Assembly: GCA_963920765.1 (NCBI GenBank)
Contig: OY987247.1
Location: 1,302,001 to 1,366,000 of the forward strand
Length of the DNA stretch: 64,000 nucleotides
Direction of reading: 5' to 3'
Source: Ulota crispa
Taxonomy: Eukaryota > Streptophyta > Bryopsida > Orthotrichales > Orthotrichaceae
Shown: piece after piece, positions 45,063-62,043 of the stretch
Numbering within the stretch: the first letter of the stretch is position 1
Layout: the number at the start of each line of letters is the position of its first letter
Translations under genes and position numbers: made by a program
Notes under the pieces: generated by a model
Database searches by the model: none
What the model was told of the DNA's origin: nothing
What the model saw: only the letters and a program-made list of their open reading frames with translations

Positions 45063-45654
45063 TTAAAAAATATCCAAAACTATTTAAAAGTCAATAGAAT
45101 TTTGATTTTATAATTGCAAGGTTTTAATTCTGTAACTTTTCACGACTTCATGTTATTTGAAGCTATCAAACTATGGAGGCTATTTTAACAAAATAAGGAT
45201 CTTTTTACAAAAAAACTAACACTAAATAATGTTTATTAATGAATTCAACCTTTGCCTGCAACAATCCTTATGAGATTTGTGAATTCCAAAAAAAATTTAT
45301 AAACAAAATCAAAAGGATGGAAATAAACAATTTATTTAAAATTTCTAAACACCTTCTCTGACTTTAGCTCATAACTTTTGATAAAAAGATTGAATTCCAA
45401 AAAAAATTGTTGGAGGTGAAAATAAAATACATTTACCAACTTTCCTTATTTTTAAGTTTTTTGAAAAAAAGTCTTTTAATGGGCGGAAATAGCCTCCAAA
45501 GTCTACTAGATTACTAAAAACATGAACATTTAATGTACAAATAGAATCAAGATACTAATGCATGCATGTGCATTTGCACATTCTCTAGTGGTTTTGAGAA
45601 TGTGCTAAAGTTGTGGAGTGTGAGAGGAGAGGTGGAGGGTTCAAACCTTGCTAC

Positions 45655-45922
45655 CGGCAGCTGTTCGGGAGTTCGGGCAGCTGTACGAGAGTTCGGGCAG
45701 CTGTACGGGAGTTCGGGCAGCTGTCCGGGAGTTCGGGCAGCTGTCCGGGAGTTCGGGCAGCTGTCCGGGAGTTCGGGCAGCTGTCCGGGAGTTCGGGCAG
45801 CTGTCCGGGAGTTCGGGCAGCTGTCCGGGAGTTCGGGCAGCTGTCCGGGAGTTCAGGCAACTGCCCAAGAGTTTGGGCAGCTGCCCAGGAGTTCGGGCAG
45901 TTGTCCAAAAGTTTGGGTAGGT
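45655..45922. repeat. 20-bp GC-rich tandem repeat in the CACTA element
   Basis: About thirteen head-to-tail copies of AGTTCGGGCAGCTGTCCGGG, with variants at both ends and a nearly perfect core. Each unit holds the palindrome CAGCTG. Since 20 is not a multiple of three, every frame stays open with a 20-residue period; this is not evidence for a protein. Confidence 0.95.
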
Positions 45923-46556
45923 GCCCATCCCTCTAAAAAGTTCACATTTTTGTAAAATAATAACAAATTCTATGAAAAAAAATTTTAAAATGAAAAGAAA
46001 TAGAATTGAACAACATTAAATACGTAATAGAAATTAACAACAAATTAACAAAAAATTGTAAATAATCAACAGAAAATCAACAAAAAAGTACCCAAATCAA
46101 CTTGACCAAATTCATAGAAAAAATCAACAGTTTTTGGTTGAAATTCTGTTGATTTTGTGCTAAATTTTCTACTAGTGTTTGCACACCTCCATAAGGATAA
46201 ATTATTGATTTTGACCATCAAAAAGTTGCATTTGAGAATTTTGAATTTGGATTTGGACTTAGAGACCAAGATTTTGTCTAGAACCATAAAAAAAGTTGCA
46301 ATTGAACAACACCTAATGAAAAAGCTTAGTTAGAGGGAAAAATGTTACTTTTACTTTTGTTTGTAAAAAAAATAAGCTTTTTCATTGAATGTTGTTCAAT
46401 TACAATTTTTTTTTATGGTTCTAAACTAAATCAAGGTCTCTAAGTTCAAATCCAAATTCAAAACTCTCAAATACAGCTTTTTAATGGTAGAAATAAGTAA
46501 TTTACCCAGCAGGGGGTGTGCAAATATCAACCCCCGGTGTGCACATGTCAATTCCC

Positions 46557-46764: not shown

Positions 46765-47318
46765 TCAGTCCTGCTGCGGGTGCATCAGTGCTTTCAACAG
46801 GCTCAGGCTATTGCGCAGCGTCACCCGTCCCATCACCCTTCGCCATTGCGCATCATCGTCACGAACTCGTTGTAATGGTCAATGCGCCCGTTGTTGTCCT
46901 GGTCCGCCTCTGCGGATCAGATCCTTGGTCGACGTCGTGCTCATGTTCTATCATACTGGCTGCACACCTGCTGCAGTAGCTCGTCCATCGTCAGGCACCC
47001 GCTCTGGTCCTTGTCCAGCCACGTACGAGAACGCCGCAAACAGGTTCTCCTCGCGCTTGATCTTGTTCAGGTGCAGCGTCGCCGCCAGATAAACTCCCCG
47101 TAGTCATCGTCATGTTTTGATCCGCGTACGCCGCGTCCATCAGCTGCCGGATCTCCGACTCCACCAGATTCGACCCCACCCGCTCCAGCCCGCTCTTCAG
47201 CTTCTCAAACGCAATCGACCTTGAATGGTCCGTGTTGATCATCTGGAACATCCGTCCCGCAGCTCCACGATCTTCTCCGGTGACAGCGAATCCGTGATCA
47301 CGCGGATCGCCGCCCCTC
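46765..47318 (-). pseudogene. EF-hand (C-terminal) half of a broken CDPK gene
   Basis: Read on the minus strand, the sequence carries the start of the calmodulin-like domain of a plant calcium-dependent protein kinase (ITDSLSPEKIVELR, FQMINTDHSRSIAFEKLKSG, GLERVGSNLVESEIRQLMDA). Later pieces lie in other frames: [37 protein letters not shown] and, at the very end, LRNSLSL. First-loop acidic residues are partly lost (NTDHSRS where DTDNSGT is usual). Several frameshifts and stops break it. It begins exactly where the large transposon ends. The matching kinase half lies at 61004-62043 on the same strand, upstream in the gene's direction. Confidence 0.9.
47304..47318 (+). repeat. Left flanking direct repeat (putative target duplication)
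   Basis: GGATCGCCGCCCCTC abuts the left terminal repeat; it belongs to the CDPK coding region. Compare with 60757-60771. Confidence 0.6.
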
Positions 47319-47560
47319 GGCACTAAGTCCCGTACACATATTGTAAAATGCCCCCTGCCCGCCTGCCCCTTCTGCCCGGCATTCTTCCTGCCCCTCCTGC
47401 CCTTTCTTCTGCCCGATGTTCTAGAGAACTAGCTGTGCCTAGTCCGGGTATCGGAGGAGCAGCTCCAGCGCCGGATTTTTTTAAACCCTCGCTCTGACTT
47501 CAACCTCGTTGCTCGAAATTCGTCGCCTTCGCGCTCGTCGCTCCGCCTTTGTCGTGGCAA
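47319..47560 (+). repeat. Left terminal inverted repeat of the MULE-like element
   Basis: Shares with the right end the terminal GGCACTAAGTCC, CCTGCCC-rich tracts, GCCTAGTCCGGGTAT (right: GCCCAGTCTGGGTAT) and CTCGTCGCTCC. It is GC-rich against an AT-rich interior. TCACGGTCAC/GTAAGTTT at about 47602 looks like a 5'-UTR splice donor for the left gene, so this repeat probably acts as its promoter. Confidence 0.78.
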
Positions 47561-48596
47561 GCTCTCAAGCTGCAATTCTGCCTGGCTCATCTTCACGGTC
47601 ACGTAAGTTTCCTCCTCTCTCTCACATCTGAGAATGGTTTACATGATGCTCAAAGGATGAGCAGATCAGGGTAGGATTCAAATTTTAAGAATCGGAGACA
47701 AACGCATTTCCGTGTCACCTCTACCAGAGGTATGACTAGATGGGTTTAGGGTTTAGTACCTGGCTATACATTTTGTTAATTCTGCCATCCACTTCGAACA
47801 GAGAGATGCTGCAAGGAGCAAGACAGTCTACCAGAAATGCAGTTTTATGAAAATCGAGCACTTGAAGAGTATACCTTGTGCCTTTTTATACTCATCTTCT
47901 TCATGTAATGTAGGCAGAAATCACAATTATAAAGCTTGTGTTTGTGAGAACATTCGTCAAGATAGGGTGAATATTACCTGCAAATTCATCATACGTTTAG
48001 ACTCACGGTAGCTATGCTACTAGGCAGCAGAAGACTATTAAGCCATGGAGGCCTAATGGTTGAGATAAATGCATCAATCATGAATCCAAGAACTTAACAA
48101 ATGATATTAGCACAACACCAAGTTGATTAGAATATGCTTATCGATAGATCAATAGAGCCTTTGTTGTTGGCCATGGGTATGAGATATCAATTGATTTTGC
48201 AAAAAATGTAGTAAACTTGTTTAGTATTTTGATTTCTTATTTGACCGCTATTTGTCAAATCATTGTCTCTCAAGTCGTATTAAGTGAATTTTGCGTTGTT
48301 TGATTGTAGCTTTCCTTAGCTCAAGCATCTTCTTGGGTAATGTATAGAAGTTTTACTTCAAGAATTGCTTGTTTTACTATCTAGAAAACACATGATGTTT
48401 TATTGTAAAAGTATACTATTTCAAATAATAAAATTGTTTTTGTCTTGGAAATCAAAGATTTTAGAATTTAGTTGATGTTGGATGTTGGGTTTTAACTTTT
48501 GAAAACATTGTAATTTTGAAAGTACTTTGAGCAATTTTGTTTTGCTTATTAGTTCATGTTGCATTTGTGGGATTTTTAGGTTCTGTTCAATATATC

Positions 48597-49554
48597 ATGG
48601 CTTCTAAGACAAAGAGGGTTTGGAAACGTGATGAAAGTGCAAAGGCGGCAAGGAAGGCTAGAAGTGGAAAAGAAAATGAAAGAAATGCGGAGGCAAACGC
48701 TAAAGTACGGATAGAAGATGGCGTTGATTCCAAATTTGAGGAAGAGAGGGCGTTGATTCCTCCTCCCACGTTCATGGAAAAAGAAGTGGAAACTTCTCCA
48801 TTAGTGAAAGCTATGGAAAGGGGATTCCTTGATGACATGAAGATTTTCCGTTTCGTTAACTACAAGTTTTTTGTACCTGCTCTATTGAATTCTTCATATT
48901 TTTATGTCTCCTATATTGTGCATGGCTTGGAAGGATACATTCATTCCACTACAACTGATGAATTGGAGAAATCTAAGGCAGAAACTCTTATATCTTATTT
49001 TCAAGGTAATTATTTGATTCTTTATGTTTCTTTCTTGTTTTTGGATTTGTTCAATGCAATTCAAGTTGTTTCATATGTTTACTTTCTATGTTTGAATTTT
49101 TATTTTTTGCATATTGGTAAAGAGAATTATTTTCATTTCATTCTTAAAACTTGATTTTTGTTAAATTGGTTGTGTAGATGAAGATTGGGAGAGTTATCAC
49201 TACCAAAGGGCAACCCACCTTCTTTGCCTACTTCAAGCTAATGATCACCATTATGCAAAGAAATTGTGGGAGAATGCGGCCTTGTGGAAAGAAGAGTGGA
49301 AAGAGAAGCGCATGGAAAAGTGGAGACTTCTACATCCTCTTCAAACTAGAGAAATGCAAGACCGAATCAAGAAAAGAACTTTGGAAGACAACAACAATGA
49401 AGAAGAACCTCCCACATTCCCATTTAGTGGAACAACGTCATCTACATTTGCTAGTAAAAAGAAGAGCAAGGCTACACCAAAGCCTACGTCAAAAGGCAAG
49501 GGCAAGGGCAAGGGCAAGGGCAAGTGCAAGGGCAAAGGTAAGAGCAAGCCATAG
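48597..49554 (+). CDS. Accessory gene of the MULE-like element, exons 48597-49005 and 49178-49554
   Basis: The model joins TTTCAAG/GTAATT to a TTGTGTAG acceptor (172-bp intron, splitting one Asp codon) and gives an uninterrupted 261-residue protein. The N-terminus is strongly basic (SKTKRVWKRDESAKAARKAR). The middle is helical and aromatic (FLDDMKIFRFVNYKFFVPAL; HYAKKLWENAALWKEEW). The C-terminus is a low-complexity tail of alternating Gly-Lys after KKKSKATPKPTSK. A further 5'-UTR exon is likely, with donor near 47602 inside the terminal repeat and acceptor GATTTTTAG at 48580. I recognise no family. Its position matches mudrB of MuDR, but no sequence similarity is claimed. It is intact while the partner transposase is broken. 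The basic tail suggests nucleic-acid binding or a nuclear location. Confidence 0.65.
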
Positions 49555-50339
49555 GAAGTTTGAATTCAAAGAAATTTAATTGTAATACTATAAACTTTTT
49601 TTCTTTCATTAGTATCTTTCAATGTCTAACACTACATTCTAGTCAATTTTGGGTGAAATTGAACTAATAGTCTACTTGTGGGCAAAGAGTACTTGCATTT
49701 GTTTCAATGCTCTCTACTCTATGAATGCTTTATAAGGATTATATAAGAGTGTAGCCTCTTCACCTAACATGTTTGTTGAACTTAATTGTTTTTAAAGTCT
49801 TTTAAATGGATTTTTCTTGTTTTTCTCTGCGTTGTCTTTTAACACTCTTATTGTTTTCATTTTATTTTATGGCTTTTTATTTATTTTAAAAAGTGAGGTT
49901 TTTGAATAGGGTAATCTTGGTTTAGTAAAGCTGCTGAATATTTACAATTTCTGTTCTTTTCATCTTTTGCAAGAAAAGTTTAGTGAGACTAGTGGACCAT
50001 TACAAGAGCAAACCTCGTGTGTATTTTTTTCATGTTAATAAAGAGTGTTGCATGTCATTGATGTTGCATTTCGTAAACCCATCTCTTCTATCATTTCATG
50101 TTGGTATTCGAGTTGTGTGACAATTTGTAGTGTTTTGTGACATCCTATTCTGTTTTTCATGCTTAGAATATATGTGAATTGATAGAGTAACCATGGAATT
50201 GTACTTCTTGTGGACATGATCCGTAGTTACTCTTTTACTAGGGTTTTTCCTATATTTCATGTAATTTTGGTAGTGTTGTAAGGTTGCAATATCCATAAGC
50301 GCTGTGTCCCTGTGGCCGTCACCTAGCAATGGCAAGGGC
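49555..50339. other. AT-rich interior of the MULE-like element
   Basis: 3' flank of the accessory gene; nothing else recognised. Confidence 0.5.
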
Positions 50340-50690
50340 TATTCAATAAAAAAGCAAATGGTTGTGGGTGACTGAGTGATGGTTATGGGTGATGATGTGA
50401 GGGTTGTGGGTGACTAGCATGAGGTTTTGAGTACCCATCTCACTCTTTAAGAACCAACAAGCCTTGTTTTTAGCATCTCTTACACATAGTTCCTACAATT
50501 TCAATGATTTAGGATTTTGAAAAGTCTTTGTGAACAAATGCTTGTAGTTGTAACCTTGAAATTGATGCCAATATTTTTGGTTTCCACTTTCTAACTTACA
50601 ATATTTTTTTCAAAGTTACCCAATTGTTATACCTACTCCAAAACCCTTATTTCCAGGCTTATGGTTCCGCCTACATTAAGTGATCCTTGC
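50340..50690. repeat. Dispersed repeat, copy 2
   Basis: Collinear with 26770-27130 (shared 'GAACAAATGCTTG', 'TTGATGCCAATATTTTTGGT' and 'CCAGGCTTATGG'-like block). Confidence 0.65.
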
Positions 50691-51310
50691 TACAATTAGG
50701 AAGCTAATTAATTTTGTAAAATATGGATAAATATTTATTTTTTTGAGAATATTGGTCTACATTCATCCAAATAGAACTATATCATCTCAAGGTTGTAGAA
50801 TAATTGTGCAATTTCACCCATCAAGAACAGAAGAACATATGACCAAACATTCATGTACACATTCTTTTACATAAAAACTATATTGCTTTTTAATGAAAAT
50901 CGCACAAAAAGTAATCCTAGATATTACTATGTGCATGTTGTTGGCTTTGGATCAAAGGGCAGGAGGATTTGCTTTCACAAGACCTACCTTGAAGAAGATT
51001 GAGTAGGTACATGAAAGGAGGTTCACACAACATCCCGCACCTCATCTTTGTAAGTTCCACCTCAATGCAAAATCCAGTTTTCATAGGATTTTTAAGTGAA
51101 AAAATGAGTACTATAAAAAGACATGAACAAATTATACAATGATTTTGGTAAGATTTAGGTTTAGCAATATATTTGACCAAAATCTTGAGTGTCCCACCCT
51201 CTTTGCTGTCAAATCTTCCAAAAAATGTTGTCATGTAAACAAAATGTAATGACTTGGAATGCCAAACTTGGTATGTATTGTGTAGTGCCAGACTACCTTA
51301 TTTTGTGAGT
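50691..51310. other. AT-rich interior of the MULE-like element
   Basis: Nothing recognised. Confidence 0.45.
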
Positions 51311-51547
51311 GTAAAATCGTGAGTCCCCTCATTGGTGAGCCAAGATGTTGTCTACAAGAATCAATTCTGATCTCAAAATCAATGATTTTCTTAAAAAAAC
51401 AACAAGTTCTTGAAAACATGAAAATTTATAGTATACAATTATAAGACCCTAAGTACACATTCATAGGTGAAATCTAATATTTTGATACATAAAGTAGGGT
51501 CATGGCTCAAAACTCATGGATTCCTGCTCACAATTTCACATTCTCTA
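51311..51547. mobile_element. Diverged relative of the 11449-11882 foldback MITE
   Basis: The interior repeats the family blocks in order: 'TCAAAATCAATGATTTTC', 'ATACAATTATAAGACCCTAA' and 'GTCATGGCTCAAAACTCATGG'. Ends are eroded. Confidence 0.55.
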
Positions 51548-52199
51548 ATTGTCCCTTACTTCTATAGGTAACCAATGCTACACAATAAAGGCCTTTTGCT
51601 TTGTACTTGCTTATTTTTTTCAGTATTTGTGTGTATTCTTGGCACATGAAAAGTTTATATATAGTACATTTCCTAGCAAGCTACCGTGTGAGAGTAAGAT
51701 TAACACAAGAAATTTCTTGGGCTTCATTACAGTGTCCTTGTGATTTGCATTCTAATCAAAAGTCATTTGTACAAGAAAAAAAATGACATTCTGTTCATAT
51801 GGACATATTTATGCTTTGGTATAATTGAAATTAGTTTACTTCATTATTGCCCTTAATGGGAAATATGTGTGCAATTACAAATAAACACAGCATTAACCCC
51901 TAAGTGTCCATAGAGCCCAATATGGTCAAGGGGTGCTTGGAGGTGTGAAAGTAGACAAAAGAGGCATTCTCTGCTCAAATTTTGGTTTGCCATTGTAGTG
52001 TACATGGAGTTGCTATTTCAACAAAAAATTGTTATCAGGTTGTTGTTCCTTAGAGCGCCTATTGTACTCTACACTCTACAAGGAATATAGAGATTTTTTT
52101 TGATTTTCAACAATTAGGAGAAGAATGTCTTTGGGCAATTGAAGGGAGCGGCTTAGGCAGCGGATGGGATATGGTAGCTCCCATGTCTTGTATTGTAAA
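51548..52199. other. AT-rich interior of the MULE-like element
   Basis: A single TTAACCCCTAAGTGTCC end at 51894 resembles the TTAA element family, but no matching partner end was found. Confidence 0.4.
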
Positions 52200-53107
52200 G
52201 TGCCAAGCAACCAGAATTCCACAAACTGTCCCCCATTCTACTAGCCTATTTATTTTAACAATGTAACTGAGTCAATTAGGATTTTATTAGCATTCCATTT
52301 GCATTCTCTTATCTTGCAATTTGTATATTCAATGAGTGCCCCAAATCAATGAAGCATATCAAGAGTCAACCGCAAATAGTCAAAATCCAATTTTTGGTAA
52401 ATAGTTTTGTGTCAAAATCAAGATTTTACAAGAGAATTGATTGAAAATGATTGGTGACAAATTTTTGAGATTTGATTGCATGTGTATGTAGGAAATATCT
52501 ACATGCACATCTTCTATGCTAAAAACATCCATTGAATAACAAATATTTCATTTTTAGAGGATTCATTGTGACATGAGATATGCTAAAGCTTTGTAAAGTA
52601 GATATTTCTTTATGATTATCAAATTTGGCTACTTCACTCATTTATTGTGACTAAGTCTCTACTTTTGAACATGGTGTTATGTTCACATGATGAAAAGCTA
52701 GTTAAAAAATAATTATTTCTATTTTACAAAACTTTGGCCTATCCCATGTCACAATGAATCTTATGAAAATGAAATTTTTGTTACTCAATGGATGTTTTTA
52801 GCATAGAGGATGTGCATGTAGATGTTCCTACATACACATGCAATCAAATCTCAAAAATTCATCACCAATCATTTTCAATCAATTCTCTTGTAAAATCTTG
52901 ATTTTGACACAAAACTATTTACCAAAAGTTGGATTTTGACTATTTGCAGTTGAATCTTGATATGCTTCATTGATTCGGGGCATTCATTGAATATACAAAT
53001 TGCAAGATAAGAGAATGCAAATGGAATGCTAATAAAATCCTAATTGACTTAGTTACATTGTTAAAATAAATTGGCTGGTAGAATGGAGGATAATTTGTGG
53101 TTGCCGG
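52200..53107. mobile_element. Large foldback element, arms about 390 bp
   Basis: 52200-52590 and 52738-53107 are highly similar inverted arms (for example TTTGCATTCTCTTATCTTGC and CATACACATGCAATCAAATC with their complements) around a loop of about 150 bp. It has no coding capacity. Transcription would give a long hairpin RNA. Confidence 0.88.
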
Positions 53108-56040
53108 GTACTCTACAAGGAACAAGTTGGATGATGTGTAACTTTATGCTTTTTTGATTTGGCTAAGGTTTTTGCAGCTCTAAAGTAAGTAGATAGTGGA
53201 ATCTAGTTTCTTTGAGTGATTATATGTCTTGGAGTTTTTTTCCATTTTATGAGTTTCTTTTCTATTAACCCGTGAGCGCCTAGAGTTATTTTTGGATTTA
53301 GGAGAAAATGGGGGGTTTAATGGTCACCACAACTTGGAAAATGACATCCAGAAAAAATGACCATAGGATATGAAAAAGAACTACCTTTTGTACTACTGGG
53401 GACTAGATATGATGGTTTTCACTATACAAATTAAGAGAATAAATGAGCTAGAAAATGAGATAAAGTTGTGGGCCTAAACGACAGGATCCTTACGCTGAGG
53501 CGCTTAAGGCTTGAGTATATTGCTAGACATAATCTCATGGAATAAGCCATTAGGTTCATATGTTCTGTGGGAGTAAATTACGTGGAAGTCTACAATCCAT
53601 ATTCTAAAATGTTGCCAAGATTGCCAAATACAAGATTCTCAATGATGGGGATTTCCTAGATTTAATTGGATTTGAAATAAGTTTGGTTTTAAACATTTGA
53701 TTTCATAATTGGGTATAAAATGACTAGTTTGGATTATGTGATTATTTGTTTGATTTTCCAAAAACTCAGTGAATTTGCTAAAGGTTTAGTATTGGAGGTA
53801 TGGTAAATTCTCTTAGCAAAATGCTTAGGGATATTGCAACTTCATTTTTGAATCTGTTCTTTGCTTACTTAAATTATGAACCTCTACACAATTTTGCACC
53901 ATCTATAATGTGGATGATGAATAAAAAATTTCAAAACAATATTGTACGTGTTCTTTATATTGGATGGACTTCATTCATGTGCCTCTTATACATAAAAAAT
54001 GAAACACATGTCATATTTGGATTACTAGGTTCATGACTAGTTTGCAGTACTTGTTATACTTTTGATATGTTAAAGGATTCTTAGGAGCACCATTTCTAGT
54101 ATGTGGCTTTTTAATACTCATGATAAAGGACCACTAATGAACTTGACAAAACTCTACACATGATCATCATCGTGATTGTTTTTTTATTTATAACAAATCA
54201 TCCAATTCCCTAGAATTAAATAGAATAACATTTTTTCAATGCTTTAGTTAGCATCAAAATATCAATTTTGCACAAACTTTGAGTTGGAGAATAGTGTTTT
54301 TTGGCACATCAAGGAAGAATACCAAAATATAACTTTACCTCTCACTCTATAACTACACGTTATATATATTTTTGGAATACCAAGGGGACAAGCTTGACAA
54401 AGGGGATTTCAATCATTTGAGAAATTTTGAAAATCCCACCCTTCCTTTGTTTTCAAAAGAATTTTTGTTTTATTAAAATAATGTGACTGGTTACTCTAAA
54501 TTTAGGACTTCTTAGAGAACTTCAATTTTCAATAGTTTCTCAATCTTCTAGTAGAAGTATAGTTGACTCCTAAAGAATGTTGTTGTATTGTATATGTTCT
54601 CTTCTGTTGTATATGAATGGGGTATTTGAATAGCACATGAACTCCTTTGGAGTTGTAAAATTTAAGCCAAGTCATAAACATACTTGGGGAGATGCAAGCT
54701 CAGGATTCCCATTTGTGGCTAAAAAGAAGTCCTTTTTTGAGTAGAGAACAGAGTGTTTTTGTGTTCCCAATGAGAATTCTCCCTCTTCTCAATAAAAGTT
54801 TCAAATTCCAAAGGTTGACCACCCTAGTTTATGCCATTCTAAGACACTTACGTAGAGAAAAATAGTAATAAAAATGATTTAACTTAAAGAAATCAATTCC
54901 CAAAAAGGACCAAAAATTGTAGTCATTTAGGAGCATAGAACATTCCTTTTCTCCAAAGTAAAAATTATATTCATACAAATTTCAATTCAAAATGTAATCA
55001 TCCCAGTCTTCTAATAATGATGCTAAAAGATTGTGCCCATATTATGAGTCTACATATCAATTGAAGAGTCCTTTTAGCAAGAAGAAAGCACTGTGATAGT
55101 TTTAAGAGCTATGTTTAAAAGTTATTTTCTATTTTCACATTAGAGATATATACTTTATTTTGGTGGAAGTTGGATCATCAACAAGTCTACTTTCTAAATA
55201 TGAGTCTTTTCTCTCTTAAAGACTTCATTTTTCAATGAAACTACATCCATTTGCTAAAAAAATCCTTCATTTTTACCCTTGTGACTAACATAGTAGTCAC
55301 CTTAGCTTGCATGTACCACTTCCAATGAATGAGGATGTTCTGGGAAATTTTTGACGTCCTTCCGATGAAGGTCCAATAAATATTTGAGATTTCTTGAATG
55401 ATTTTCTTTTTATTCCCGTATTTAATAGTTTTATCAAATAACTATTTTGCAAATTTTCTCTAATTCACAAATCAAGAAATTGAAAGAATTTGATTTCAAT
55501 TGTGCATTGCAATGTAAGCAAACTTAATTGTTAAGAAAAATAGATATCCTATAAAAAATCAAAATTAAGTGCAAAACTTAAACAATTATTTGTAATTGAT
55601 ACACTTTAAGTTGCAAAAAAACCTCCAAATTATTCATTACATTGAAGGATAAAATAAAAGGTATTGTGAAAAGATGATTCTAAAATGAAGAAACTAAGAG
55701 AAACACATGGATTTCTATGATTACAAACCAAATGAATTCTGAAGCACATGGTCAATCAACTCAATCCAGAAATTGATTTGTATGGTCTTCAAATTTTTTG
55801 GGAAAAACCCATTGCAATCATATATAGTACATGAAAAAAGAAGAAAATGCCAATTTATTAGTGTCAATTATGATTATAAAGTTTATTTTATGTTCTCTTT
55901 GCTATTGTTACAAACAAAAGTCAATTATAAATGATAATGTCATGTACATGATGAACAATGTAATTAGATCTAGGAAGAAGACACATGCAGTTGTAAAACT
56001 ACATAGCATTATTGACATTGATGAACCATAAAATATCTTT
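53108..56040. other. AT-rich interior of the MULE-like element, nothing firm
   Basis: Short frames (for example 53800-54036) lack splice or family support. A possible TTAACCCGTGAGCGCC end at 53266 has only a weak partner near 53500. Confidence 0.45.
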
Positions 56041-59000
56041 TCAATTACGTGTGAAACGCTTCTCACAATTTTGGCAAGATATTGTTTTCTCTCCCTTTGC
56101 TATCATACTTTTTGTGAAGCATGGATCACATACAACTTTTGGAATTCTAGGAAAAAAATCTTTTTCCTTTTAGAAGTTGAAATGAACTTGTGAGGTGGAG
56201 GTGTTAATGTAGATTAAGCTTGACTTACATGTGATTTCTTCACTCCATCAATTGTCTCTATTTGTTGTAGAGATCTACCATGTTCCATCCTTGTAAATTG
56301 CACATTTTTTTGAATAGAGGATATAGAACCTTTGCTTGGAAGTACAATAAGGGAAGGCCTTTCAAAAGTAAAAGGATCCTTCACAAATTGAATATAGCCC
56401 TTGATTATATCCTTCTTGTACTTCTTCTCCGCTCCTCCATAATTTGCCATGTTGAACTTCACTTCTAAAAGTATTGATTCCATTTCGTGGATAACTTGCA
56501 AAAAATCCTCATCTTCATTACTGTCCATTGTATTATCATTTATAATATTGCCATTGTGGAATTCTTGTGTGATAGGTTGAAGAAGTGGTTCTATGATCAC
56601 ACTAGAACATGACGGTCTTTCATCATATAAAAGGCCATAATGTTTTTTCAACATCAATTGCAGTGCAAGAATGTGCTTGCATGTTGATATAGTAGAGACA
56701 CAATCATAAAAATGAGTACGTACGGACACAGTGTACCTAGTGTTTGGAGCAGTTTTGCTTGCTATACGGAATAGCATTTGGTTGACATCCACAAACTCCA
56801 AGACACTTTCAGGTTCAATTTCATACTTTTGGAAAAGTCTTTGTGCATTTGCTAGACAATATTGATGAGGCTTATCATTTGCTCTTCTAGAGAACCTTCC
56901 AAAATTACCTACAATATAAGGAAGTAAACATAGATGTCAAATGTGACACAATTAAAAATGTACTAACAATCTAAAAACTAAGAATAAACATGAATTTCAC
57001 ACAAAAAAGTACTTACTTATAACTTGAACTTGTTTGAAATGGTCTACTAGAGTAGGCCCTCCAATGCGACTTCCATCTTTAGCGCTTCCAATGATGGCAA
57101 CAATCAAATCTTGAATCAATTGATTTACTTTTCCTTGTAATAGAGTATACTCGATCCATTCCTAATGCCTTTCTACATGATTTGTTGTGTCAACACAGCC
57201 ATATTCAAATAGCCTTCCAAATTTAGGCCACATTCTTCTCCAAGGGATAGAATCATTTGCCCATCCAAGTTTTATATACTCTTCTACTCCAAGAACATGC
57301 TCAAAATCTGCATAGAATTTATGCAAATTTTGATCAAAATGATCTTCTTGTGGGCAATTCAATAGTACATGAAGACTTTGCCAGATTTTATCTTTCTTTG
57401 CTATAGGTACACGTGTGAGAAGATTCTCACTCCATGCCTTCATAACATGAAACCAACAAAGGAAAACGCGTCTTGCAAATTGCTCTTCTCCAAGTTTTCT
57501 ATCCTTCCAACAATGAATGTCATTGTTAACAATACGTCTTATAGCATTCAATGATGTCTTGCACTTATCAATAATAAATGCTGATGGTCTAATCTCTTCT
57601 ATATTAGAAAATACAAACATCAATGCAAGTTCTATTGCTATTCCTTCATGGCCCCCATCTTTGTCTTTGGTACATAACATATAGAAAACAAGCATGGCTT
57701 TTCCATCTTGATTTGGAACCACTGCGGCATATAGAGGTAAGTCATAATGATTAGTTTTGAAAGTTGAATAAAATGCCCATGAATCACCCCTTAAGAATCG
57801 TTTCGCATTTGTCTTCATAAATTTGTCTTGTATGACTACAACAAAAGGTCGTTTCTTGGGATCTTGATGCTCTCGACAATATCTCTGATAGAAAATTACC
57901 TTTCCTTGTTTTTGAAGTCTAATAGCTTCCACATTGGCAGCATCCCAATCATCCACTCTTAGTGCATCTACAAAATCCACAATAAGCGTATACAATGAAA
58001 TGTCTTATAAAAAATATGATAAAAAATAAAAGCTTTAAAAAATGGTGGAAAGAAAAATACCATTTAATTTGATGGAGTATGATAGTTGCTCAACTTCCTT
58101 TGGAATAAGAAAAAATCGATACACTGAGCGCTCCATGTCAGGCACCAGTGCTTGCATTTTGAGTTCTTCTCGAACGGATATTAATGCCACTGTAGATGTT
58201 GATATCATATGCTTCAAATTTTCCATTGCAAAAGAAATAACTATTGGATGTATAGGTAGAAATAACTTGTCCACTTCTATACCTAGAAGATGTCCACTGT
58301 GCTTTGAATACACAAATGGTTTTGCTTCTAAAGAAGCTTTTGAGTCTGTTGAACATGTTTGGCTACCAAGAGGCATTATCACTTTGATTTGAAACTCACA
58401 GTCACATTTCATAGACTTCCTTTCCCTTCTGTGCGTAGAAATGCTATCATCATCTTTTCTTTTTCTCTTTCTTGATCTTTTCTTTCCACCTCTATGGCAT
58501 CAGTAATATGTGACTGTATGATGCTTTATAAGTGTTGAATGGAAAACATGCCTTACTACAACATGAGTCTTGCATATCTCATCTAGCTTGGCATCAACAA
58601 GTTCACAAGGAATGTTGTGAACCTCATCCCAAAGTTTTGATTTTTGACAATGTGGACAAGATTGTACACATTTCTCAATATATGATAGAGAAATTCCACC
58701 TACTCTTTGATCAGTGACCCACTTATTGGGTACAGTAGAAGTTGTGGCATGCAATGTTAAATGCTTCCCACTAAGATCAACATGTGAGGTAGACACAATA
58801 GATGACCAAATTCATGTATGAGGTATTTCCCTTTCTTTTGTATCATTTAAAGTTGAAAGACCAACTCCATCAACGGTTTCTATTAACTTCAAACTATTTT
58901 GAAGTTTCACCTATTGCTCAAGAGTATGAATAGGATCATTGACATTTATAGATCTCCCATGGCTTTTAAGAAATGGATGGAAATGACCATCCGCTTCACA

Positions 59001-59411
59001 AATCTCATTGAAGGTAGGATTTGTTTGTCTTTATAAACAAACAATCATAAGGTTTCTAGTATCAAGTGTAAATTGTATGAATTTTGTAAAAGATTCTATA
59101 AGAATTTGATCAAAAGAAGGTTTGGAAAACTCATCTATGAGTGGTAAGTCAGCCGTCACAAAGTTTGATTCCCATCCAAAATCTCCTTCCCACATGTGCT
59201 CCATGTCTTCATCAGAATCATAATTTGATTCAAAATAAGATAAATGGAAGTAGACATCTTCTTCAATTAGAGAACAATTTGATGATTGACCTTTTGAGGA
59301 CCCATGAAGTATGTCTTCAACTCCTAATATGTACTCCAAATCGTCTTCATAATTGGTAGGGTAGTAAGAATTATCTTCATTGAAGTCAATGTCCTCTTCT
59401 ATGATGAAACC
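56041..59411 (-). pseudogene. MULE-type transposase with SWIM-like finger, broken by five in-frame stops
   Basis: Exons on the minus strand: up to 59411-58061, 58003-57017, 56908-56229 and 56166-56041; introns of 57, 108 and 62 bp, with phases that agree throughout. In order it shows an acidic region; a CPHC/CKTHVVVRH region; a FAR1/MULE-like Cys-rich block (CHRGGKKRSRKRKRK, KCDCEFQIKV); a MULE core (YSTFKTNHYDLPLYAAVV, AFIIDKCKTSLNAIRR, FLCWFHVMKAW); a SWIM-like DCVSTISTCKHILAL near 56660-56735; and a final CDPC...CQNC ribbon. Stops lie at 59031, 58911, 58812, 58500 and 57162, all without frame shifts. The usual first catalytic Asp (DATYKT) reads Tyr here (57768-57770). The 5' start is unresolved because 59411 looks like an acceptor (TTTAG). 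Confidence 0.82.
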
Positions 59412-59756
59412 CTAAAGCAAAACTTCAAAGCTTGAAAATAAAATACTAAAAATTCTAAACCCAAAAAATATGGTGTTCTAATATGCACATTATAAGTGCT
59501 TTGAAGTGAATACTCTTATGACAATCCTAAATATTTGATAGAAAAAATGAAAGAGGAAAAAATAAAAGTGCCTACAAAAACTACTAGAATGAAGGGTTTT
59601 AAATCTTAAACCTTGAAAATAGAAAACCTAACAAGTACACTATGAGTGTTTAAAAGAACACTACTTCATAACTCTAAATCTTTAATATAGTGAGTGTAAG
59701 TGGAAGAGATTGAAATTCTTACAAAAACTTTGATAGTAAAATGCTCTAAATTCTAA

Positions 59757-60037
59757 ACTCAAAGAAGAGAACATGAGAACAAGCATTCTATAAGTATTTA
59801 GAAGAACACTCACTTCATGTAACCTTAAACTCAAAGAGGAGAAGATGAGTACAAGTATGCTCTAAGTATTTAGAAAAACACTCTCTATGTAATCCTAAAC
59901 TCAAAGAAGAGAAGATGTGCACAAGCATCCTATAAGTATTTAGAAGAACACTCTCTATGTAACCATAAATTCAAAGAGGAGAGGAGTACAAGCATCCTCT
60001 AAGTATTTAGAAAAACACTCTCTACGTAACCTATATT
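59757..60037. repeat. Four tandem units of about 70 bp upstream of the transposase
   Basis: Each unit contains 'ACTCAAAGAGGAGAAGATGA', 'TAAGTATTTAGAAGAACACTC' (given by its ends) and 'TGTAACC'. They sit between the right terminal repeat and the transposase, in its 5' region. More of the same motif, diverged, runs back to about 59490. Confidence 0.85.
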
Positions 60038-60249
60038 CTCTAAGACAATAAAATGTAGTATTGATAAGAAAATGAAGTCCTTACTAGGATGTTAAGAATG
60101 CAATGCTAGATACTCTAAACATGTACTTGTAGTTATCACACGTGAGAAGCATCCACAAAGTGCTACAATAACCATCTCTCTACAAGCCTTAACCTCGAAA
60201 GGAAGGAGTTGAATTGTTTAAGAAAAATGAGGACTCTACTACAATTAAG

Positions 60250-60505
60250 GCAAAGTAGTACCATATACTATAATCAATAGTGTATGGCCACTCTTTAAAA
60301 ATAAATGATGTGTGTCCAAACACTATTACCCAAAGTGCATGGCTATGGCAAAATGAGCCATACACTTTCAACAACAGTATATGGCTACAACCTCATACAT
60401 TTTTCAAGAGTGGCCACTATTGTTCAAAATGTATGCTTTTCCAGAGTGAGCCACACACTCAGAATAGCACTGTATGTCACACCAGAGTGAGCCACACATA
60501 ACGGA
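60250..60505. repeat. GAGTG-GCC / ATAGTGTATGG motif cluster
   Basis: Variants of 'AGTGTATGGCCACTCTT' and 'AGAGTGAGCCACACA' recur about eight times in both orientations just inside the right terminal repeat. They could be transposase or promoter binding sites; that is inference. Confidence 0.5.
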
Positions 60506-60514
60506 TTACAGGGT

Positions 60515-60754
60515 ATGGCTGGAGCGACGAGTGAGATGCGGACCAGAGCGACAAGGGTGACGACCGCAAAAAATTGGAGCGAGCAACTGTCAGCTAAACC
60601 CTCTAATACCCAGACTGGGCAATGTCAAGGGTACCTAGCCGACCAGGGCGGGTTGAAAAGTGATGGGGGCAGGCAAAAGATATACAAGCATGACGGACAG
60701 GAGGGGTAGGAGGGGCAAGAGGCACTTTTGGAATTCTATACAGGACTTAGTGCC
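60515..60754 (-). repeat. Right terminal inverted repeat of the MULE-like element
   Basis: Inverted partner of 47319-47560, ending GGACTTAGTGCC. It lies upstream of the minus-strand transposase and is the likely promoter for it. Confidence 0.78.
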
Positions 60755-60756
60755 CA

Positions 60757-60771
60757 GGATTGCCGCCCTTC
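60757..60771 (+). repeat. Right flanking direct repeat (putative target duplication)
   Basis: GGATTGCCGCCCTTC, two transitions away from the left copy and separated from the terminal repeat by CA. Fifteen bases is longer than the 8-11 usual for MULEs. Confidence 0.55.
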
Positions 60772-60780
60772 TTAAGCTTG

Positions 60781-61003
60781 GGGAACGCTATTTCATGAGC
60801 GGGAATCCGTGAGACATGATCAGGGGGATTTTGTCAAAATAGTACATTCCACCTATAAATGTATACATAGGGTCTTATAATTGTGCATTTTAAACTATGA
60901 AAATTTTGCTATTTTTAATTTATTCCATTGATTTTAAGTTGAGACTTCATTGTCGCTAACAGAATCTTGAATCCCTGCTCATGGCTCACTCATCAAATAG
61001 CGT
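60781..61003. mobile_element. Foldback MITE inserted in the CDPK relic
   Basis: The ends GGGAACGCTATTTCATGAG and CATCAAATAGCGTC are inverted. Internal 'GGGTCTTATAATTGTGCATT' and 'TTTAAACTATGAAAATTTTGC' (described by ends) match the family of 11449-11882. The CDPK coding sequence resumes on each side: ATGAACAAGGTGAAGAGG before it and AAGCTTAAGAAG after it on the minus strand. These two pieces are alike enough to be a decayed target duplication. Confidence 0.75.
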
Positions 61004-62043
61004 CGTCCTCTTCACCTTGTTCATTACCGAAATTAAACTGCTTCAGCTGGTCGCGACTACACTGCCGGGTCCATCGGTTGGTTCGGCGCCATGCCCTCCT
61101 CGCGGATCCACTGGTGGCTGAGCACTTGGTGCGCCGTCAGCCGCCGTTTCACATTCGGGTCCAGCATTTTCCGGACCAGGTCCTTAGCGCTGTCGCTGAT
61201 CGACGGCCAAGGCTCCGACTCGAAGTCCAACTCTCCCCGCAGCACCTGCTCAAAGATGCCCTGCTCCGTCTCCGCCCAGAACGGTGGCACGCCGCTCAGC
61301 AAAATGTATAGGATCACGCCAACGCTCCACACGTCCGCCTCGCGCCCGTAGGGCCTCCGCAGCACCTCCGGCGCCATGTTTAACGGGTTCCCCACCACGT
61401 CCCTGAACACCTCCCCCGGCGTGAAGAACACCGACAGTCCGAAGTCCGTCGCCCTCAGCGCCGCGTTCTCGCTTGTGTCCATCAGCAGCAAGTTCTCCAA
61501 CTTCAGGCCCCGATGCATCACGCCCAGCGAGTGGCAAGTCTCCACCACGCCCACAATCATGCGGCACAGCCTCGCCGCCTGCGCCTCCGAGTAGTGTCCC
61601 CGCTGGCCGATGCGGTCGTACAGTGTGCCGCCCTCGCACAGCTCCATCACCACGTACACGATGCTGTGATCCTCGTATGCGCCCTTGACGGTCACGATGT
61701 TCGGGTGGCCCGACAGGTGGTGCATGATCTGCAGCTCGCGCCGCACGTTGTCCACATCCTCCTGCGACATCAGCTTCCGCTTCGCAATTGTCTTGCACGC
61801 ATACTGCTTGCCCGTTGTCTTCTCCACGCACAGGTACGTTGCCCCTAACTGCCCCTGCCCGAGCTGGCGCCCCAGTGTGTACAGATCCTTTATGTTCTCC
61901 ATGGGCCGCTGCAGCACTGTTTGCGTGGAGCTCTGCCCCGGAACCACGTTCAGCCCGGCCTTCCTCATGGCTGGCTCTAAGTTGTTGCCCTGCTGCTGCT
62001 CTGGGATTGTAGTCCGAGCTGCCCCTGAACATGTGTTGCCCAT
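61004..62043 (-). pseudogene. N-terminal and kinase half of a broken CDPK gene
   Basis: The open frame 62043-61057 encodes 328 residues of a calcium-dependent protein kinase. It has the myristoylation/palmitoylation-type start MGNTCS, the glycine loop [10 protein letters not shown] (61-70), Lys84 in YACKT, DFG at 200-202, MAPE in the P+1 region and [16 protein letters not shown]. The catalytic HRD Asp is Gly (MHRGLKLEN, residue 179), and GSPYYVAPE reads [13 protein letters not shown] follows MDPAV, then a frame shift. Recognisable junction-domain code (SR, LKQF, MNKVKR) continues to 61004, where a MITE and then the 13.4-kb transposon intervene. EF-hand code lies beyond, at 47318-46765. There are no introns in the kinase part, so a retrocopy is possible. 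Catalytic loss and breaks make a working kinase unlikely. Confidence 0.92.

Follow-up and report, generated by a model that had tools for sequence, protein, structure and literature searches.

The window analysed here, 64,000 nucleotides (G000:C6:1302001-1366000) from a genome of 275 Mb in 157 contigs, contains a Mutator-like transposable element (MULE) in which an accessory gene near the left end and a transposase gene near the right end read towards each other. The copy comprises 13,444 bp (47315..60758, given without strand, as are its target duplications), beginning with CCTCGGCACTAAGTCC and ending with GGACTTAGTGCCCAGG. A first-pass annotation of the window had placed the boundaries at 47319 and 60754, where GGCACTAAGTCC occurs exactly and inverted. 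The inverted termini are real, but each true end is 4 bp outside the position first called. Once CCTC and CAGG are included, the element is flanked by ATCGCCGCC (47306..47314) and ATTGCCGCC (60759..60767), a 9-bp target duplication matching at 8 of 9 positions that the annotation had missed, and the copy is thereby defined as 47315-60758. The stronger parts of the terminal inverted repeats, at 47315..47386 (forward strand) and 60686..60758 (reverse strand), are 77% identical over the first ∼70 bp (E 6e-9), with weaker similarity to ∼47618. An alignment of 300 bp from each end, minus the first 14 bp, scored 70. When one side was shuffled 200 times the scores averaged 11 and reached 39 at most, in a control that preserves base composition only, for ends that are rich in CCTGCCC-like sequence. 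Hence the diverged similarity claimed beyond the terminal 12 bp is real, strong over ∼70 bp and weak to ∼300 bp.

The insertion site lies inside a decayed calcium-dependent protein kinase (CDPK) gene on the reverse strand. Its kinase part occupies the right flank (61057..62043), where the open reading frame matches 'Calcium-dependent protein kinase 3' in the PDB at E 3.5e-118, and its EF-hand part the left flank (46991..47305), with a weak match to PF13499 (E 0.003, below the Pfam cut-off). When the flanks are fused minus one duplication they give LRRAAIRVITDSLSPEKIVELRD, which spans the insertion site, in agreement with the earlier claim that the ends sit at the break points of one CDPK gene. 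The decay of this gene is evident from a stop that follows the kinase part, from a shifted frame in the left flank, and from HRG in place of HRD, which we presume to be the form expected at that position of the kinase. A 61-nt inverted match of 84% identity, perhaps a small unrelated repeat, links the element middle (51425-51485) to the CDPK flank outside the element (60834-60894). Directly outside the element there is also an array of 20-bp units (45596-45966) that is open in several frames on both strands.

Seven copies of the element were read at both ends and at both genes, one of them (C5b) having been fetched in part only. They are the window copy (W, 47315-60758), C4 (C4:5606803-5622997), C5a (C5:9916048-9937773), C5b (C5:13550878-13569722), C2a (C2:3656661-3671814), C2b (C2:9270710-9288057) and C8a (C8:8801575-8818008), and they range from 13.4 to 21.7 kb in length. 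All seven have related ends, and in all seven the accessory gene lies near one end with the transposase gene facing it from the other; since seven copies have the same arrangement, a chance layout is excluded. The 9-bp duplications match at 9/9 positions in C4, C8a and C2b, at 8/9 in W, C5a and C5b, and at 7/9 in C2a, which amounts to 58 of 63 positions at the called ends; at 16 alternative placements, displaced from these by 1 to 8 bases, 11-27 match. What moved with these duplications was a unit carrying two genes. The annotation's 13.4-kb MULE with two convergent genes is therefore borne out, as is the layout that it likened to MuDR of maize: in each of the seven copies one gene reads inwards from either end.

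The terminal 12-mer is by itself weakly specific (20 genome sites compared with 6 for a reversed control), and the terminal 16-mer at two mismatches is no better than its control (96 sites compared with 116). Chance occurrence of the 12-mer ends is ruled out by the target duplications and the seven copies; the two-mismatch sites C2:9270710, C2:9288042, C5:9937758 and C5:13569707 were taken as ends solely on position and target duplication. An apparent lack of a target duplication in C5a was traced to a first-called end lying inside an insertion, and the outer end gives 8/9. The 12-mer at C11:3394081 was rejected as a family end, the next 2,460 bases being unlike W, C2a and C8a. A further family-type end at C5:8010749, CCTCGGCACTAAGTCC followed by a CTGCCC-rich stretch with no accessory or transposase match nearby, is perhaps a non-autonomous or deleted copy. 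The inverted ends of C2b (C2:9288042-9288057) and C5a (C5:9937758-9937773) contain different insertions, of ∼0.3 and ∼0.7 kb, at the same TAA. Each is TAA-flanked, starts with GGGC and ends with GCCC, and we take them to resemble Harbinger-type elements that used the same target site.

The transposase gene, on the reverse strand, consists of five open pieces between 56214 and 59411. In reading order these are an acidic N-terminal piece (59031..59411), kept in all five other copies compared, two pieces of the N-terminal half (58500..58811, closed by an in-frame stop in the window copy, and 58035..58499), a catalytic piece (57162..58004) that is decayed in the window copy, and a Cys/His piece (56214..56936). 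The catalytic piece matches PF10551 at E 7.6e-9 (36.3 bits compared with a cut-off of 27.6). This domain and a target duplication within 8-11 bp (9 bp here) both place the element among the MULEs, of which many, not all, have terminal inverted repeats. A SWIM zinc finger behind the catalytic domain is common in plant MULE groups. The copies show a Cys/His pattern at that place, which we take to be a SWIM-like motif; the Pfam search gives no SWIM match. A transposase piece compared with protein databases gave 55 proteins within E 1e-10, including one from the fern Adiantum nelumboides (51% identity across a third of the query).

The window copy has a replacement at one position of the presumed catalytic motif, a residue that all five other copies compared retain, and its transposase gene is broken by in-frame stops between or at the end of pieces. 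Judged on its sequence, the transposase of the window copy is dead, a condition overlooked in the first-pass annotation, and the lost catalytic residue marks a dead copy and not a separate family. Six copies were compared over the full set of five pieces, and in every one of them at least one stop lies within or between the pieces. Stops fall inside pieces in five of the six, the window having one where other copies read through, and those between pieces may in part be introns. Stops are also present in the 1.4 kb of the transposase gene read in C5b, and none of the copies read seems capable of autonomous movement. A 70-bp minisatellite lies ahead of the gene (59753..60033, reverse strand), with 4.0 units in W, 5.1 in C4, 3.0 in C5a, 3.1 in C8a and 4.0 in C2b; repeat analysis did not report it in C2a.

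The accessory gene reads rightward in two coding exons (48597..49005 and 49178..49554, the second including the stop), with splice sites judged by eye, and in the six copies measured it starts 1.1-1.8 kb inside the element end. A possible leader intron (47603..48579, forward strand) is suggested by GTAAG near the same place in four of six copies compared and by TTTTTAG ahead of the ATG in all six. The predicted product has 261 residues, an overall isoelectric point of 9.5 and a lysine-rich KGKG tail encoded by exon 2. The annotation had set an unrecognised rightward gene against a leftward MULE transposase. The protein has no convincing Pfam domain, with only scattered weak matches under the curated cut-offs, and PMD, DUF1985 and DUF287 were not among the Pfam matches at E up to 1 for nine exon-1 and three exon-2 sequences. 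A PDB sequence search with the protein gave a best E of 0.18, with matches to the lysine-rich tail among the best. Structure models are helical for exon 1 (predicted local distance difference test, pLDDT, 66.7; predicted template modelling score, pTM, 0.40) and show a single 70-residue helix with a disordered basic tail for exon 2 (pLDDT 68.6, pTM 0.30). Both are too weak for fold comparison. A protein search found four relatives and a nine-sequence exon-1 profile found nine (six of them new), with 50-65% identity over 44-100% of the exon. These relatives lie in other public contigs, and none has a functional name among 5.8 billion proteins, in a search that needs shared 5-residue words and in which MURB itself was not compared. 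Codon 192 is TGA in C4, C5a, C5b, C2b and C8a, arginine in C2a and in a further accessory locus, C1, and glutamine in the window, states that could be explained by separate deaminations at one CpG codon.

Between the two genes lies a middle part without long open frames (49665..55730, no strand assigned). Five copies were compared with the window over the whole element, taken as 13,436 bp between the ends called earlier, of which C4 covers 13,099, C5a 12,992, C2b 12,721 and C8a 11,721 bp. The middle is fully covered in C4, C5a and C2b and over 4,797 of 6,066 bp in C8a. C2a covers 6,082 of the 13,436 bp, around both genes, and only 2 bp of the middle, which is unrelated. Since C2a matches around the genes and not in the middle, the end modules are the stable part and the middle is replaceable filler. 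A third gene in the middle was rejected, as the longest open frame, apart from the accessory exon, has 126 residues in the window and 112 in C2a, neither frame having been compared with family libraries. The middle also contains a long palindrome (52219-53100) with arms of 276 nt at 95% and 112 nt at 88% identity, matched in both orientations by C4, C5a, C8a and C2b.

Selection on the two genes was assessed from the ratio of nonsynonymous to synonymous substitution rates (dN/dS), in counts that exclude stop codons. For the accessory gene, C2a compared with the six main copies gives a dN/dS of 0.25-0.30 (dS 0.50-0.63); the further loci C1 and C5c give 0.17-0.26 when compared with C2a and the main copies, and 0.42 when compared with each other. 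A degenerate locus, C2c, gives 0.37-0.56. Values for the transposase are 0.28-0.85 in the catalytic piece, 0.47-0.82 in the C-terminal piece and 0.25-0.97 in the N-terminal piece. The accessory dN/dS values indicate purifying selection, of uncertain strength, while diverged lineages spread, and the pattern would fit a gene that mattered during the spread of the family and then decayed in single copies. Compared with the same partners, dS of C2a is 0.50-0.63 in the accessory gene, 0.37-0.48 in the N-terminal, 0.28-0.34 in the catalytic and 0.19-0.25 in the C-terminal part of the transposase gene; end modules have perhaps been exchanged between elements.

Low dN/dS between diverged groups is not what would be expected of Pack-MULE capture, in which the accessory gene would be a host gene transported as cargo and taking no part in transposition itself, although MULEs often acquire host gene fragments (PMC6446971) and several accessory copies have premature stops. 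The gene is in the same place and direction in all seven copies and was retained while the middle was replaced. The accessory protein matched 32 stretches of the genome at 14 places, and at none of them was a single-copy host source recognised. Seven of the places are in the elements; C2c (C2:8161418), a degraded accessory gene with a degraded convergent transposase piece, and C7:7122503, where the gene is internally deleted ∼2 kb from a family end, lie beside family parts; and three are in a second repeat. The loci C8b and C8:7008309 are truncated or stop-bearing. We regard capture as improbable.

The second repeat was recognised because C1 (C1:35555914), C5c (C5:16754712) and C2d (C2:24041011) have common flanks, at 76-88% identity in longer matches, which define a dispersed repeat carrying the accessory gene. 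No transposase and no family-type end was found there in the parts read. This would suit a chimera or nested insertion, in which the accessory gene came from another mobile element, was inserted or recombined into a MULE ancestor and was amplified as a passenger, as would the accessory dS of C2a to the main copies being higher than that of the catalytic piece. The position of the accessory start 1.1-1.8 kb inside the end, held in two element types with unrelated middles, argues against such a passenger, and the chimera has only a small chance of being correct. It is very improbable that the origin was the reverse, with a host MULE regulator having been taken over by the element to escape silencing: plant silencing proteins with transposon-related domains exist (PMC5418596), but no single-copy host gene of the accessory family was recognised in the genome and the protein has no named relative.

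The lineage of the host is suggested by LEAFY, which has one locus in the genome, reading KMRDYVHCYALHCLD. We take its aspartate to be the type II form at site 312. Type II LEAFY is described mainly from mosses, including all Bryopsida analysed, together with one liverwort gene (PMC6588583). The host is probably a moss.

It is very likely, in our judgement, that the copy in the window is old and dead and belongs to a plant (probably moss) MULE family, repeated and of the cut-and-paste kind, with two convergent genes, one of them a helper-like accessory. Several observations weigh against this interpretation. The two models of the accessory protein are weak (pTM 0.40 and 0.30). In the deepest accessory comparisons dS is near saturation (1.16-1.67), accessory dN/dS among the main copies is 0.31-0.59, with one pair at 0.90, and the stop at codon 192 is common to five copies. 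The pairing of the genes, which the annotation had posed as a matter of co-occurrence in other copies, stands for the seven full copies but is incomplete beyond them. A transposase piece matched 23 stretches of the genome, with ten places at 77% identity or more (further matches are at 28-49%). Seven of the ten are the seven copies; the other three, C11:3414773 (matched over almost the full query), C7:20672095 and C6:11459238 (about half of it each), have no accessory match nearby. Conversely, at five of the 14 accessory loci the sequence read (20 kb at each of C2d and C8b, and parts only of C1, C5c and C8:7008309) contains no transposase. The refuting condition raised in the annotation, an accessory gene in unrelated contexts, is thus answered in part only, with three of the five being in the second dispersed repeat.

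We conclude that the ancestor of the family had imperfect inverted ends starting CYTCGGCACTAAGTCC, a 9-bp target duplication, and a MULE transposase gene starting near one end with the 261-residue accessory gene near the other, convergent; this two-gene layout is assigned to the ancestor because the copies and target duplications show it. The two end modules form a stable core around a replaceable 6-kb middle, as shown by C2a compared with the other copies. The accessory protein, being small, basic and predicted to be helical with a lysine-rich tail, would most likely act in trans on element DNA or chromatin. By analogy, and with odds slightly better than even, its function would be either help with insertion, as for MURB, or countering of silencing, as for VANC, and we have no preference between the two. 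A broader and rather doubtful proposal is that the protein represents a new MULE helper family, old enough for several lineages of plants (mosses) and at least two element families to have it in common. It would bind its own element, perhaps via the 70-bp minisatellite, and enable insertion or lift silencing, so that a counterpart of MURB or VANC would have arisen independently outside flowering plants. If a further partner, apparently unrelated, has been maintained next to the transposase, helpers would seem to have been recruited repeatedly by MULEs. Gene targeting is easy in laboratory moss strains, and the unsettled question of why some MULEs need a second protein would become testable in mosses.

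Second genes in MULEs have precedents. The view in the first-pass annotation that mudrB-like partners are as a rule absent outside maize and its relatives agrees with PMC2725143, in which mudrB sequences seem to be restricted to Zea, but other second genes occur in many plant MULEs (PMC6446971, PMC9168764), and its suggestion of a new MULE architecture on account of a second gene does not survive comparison with them. A PMD gene, often antisense, is present in many flowering-plant MULE groups, VANDALs have extra genes and Mutyl has an antisense mutB (PMC6446971, Table 1), while in barley Abermu a gene without relation to mudrB, ORFR, lies on the opposite strand (PMC9168764). The idea of accessory partners as a peculiarity of maize is thus corrected.

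The closest likeness in layout is to maize MuDR, in which a transposase gene and a second gene are opposed, each starting near one end (PMC8224964, PMC9168764), and which also makes a 9-bp target duplication. Unlike the present copies (13.4-21.7 kb), MuDR is 4.9 kb; the ends here are imperfect, the host is not a grass, and the partner has no detectable similarity to any named protein, MURB not having been directly compared. Both genes of MuDR are driven by its terminal repeats; in the present element the possible leader intron is the one observation bearing on such control. Insertion requires mudrB, through a mechanism yet to be explained (PMC8224964, PMC9168764). The VANDALs of Arabidopsis (VANA, VANB, VANC) likewise combine a MULE transposase with extra genes and resemble the present element in having repeats ahead of the transposase gene, with tandem repeats upstream of VANA21 in VANDAL21 (PMC5735166). 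VANC binds noncoding regions of the element and causes loss of methylation, countering DNA methylation (PMC10398659). However, the accessory protein shows no DUF1985 or DUF287 at E up to 1, and there is one partner gene rather than two. The antisense-PMD plant MULEs (groups 42 and 45-50, PMC6446971 Table 1) also have a second gene, often antisense, whereas the accessory protein described here shows no PMD at E up to 1. Abermu is also large, with its opposite-strand ORFR of unknown function (PMC9168764), but it has an extra ORF2 in the transposase direction. A literature search that left most subscription journals outside its coverage listed no publication describing such an element from a moss. 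The architecture with a second gene is already known from these systems, and what is new is the partner protein and its probable moss host.

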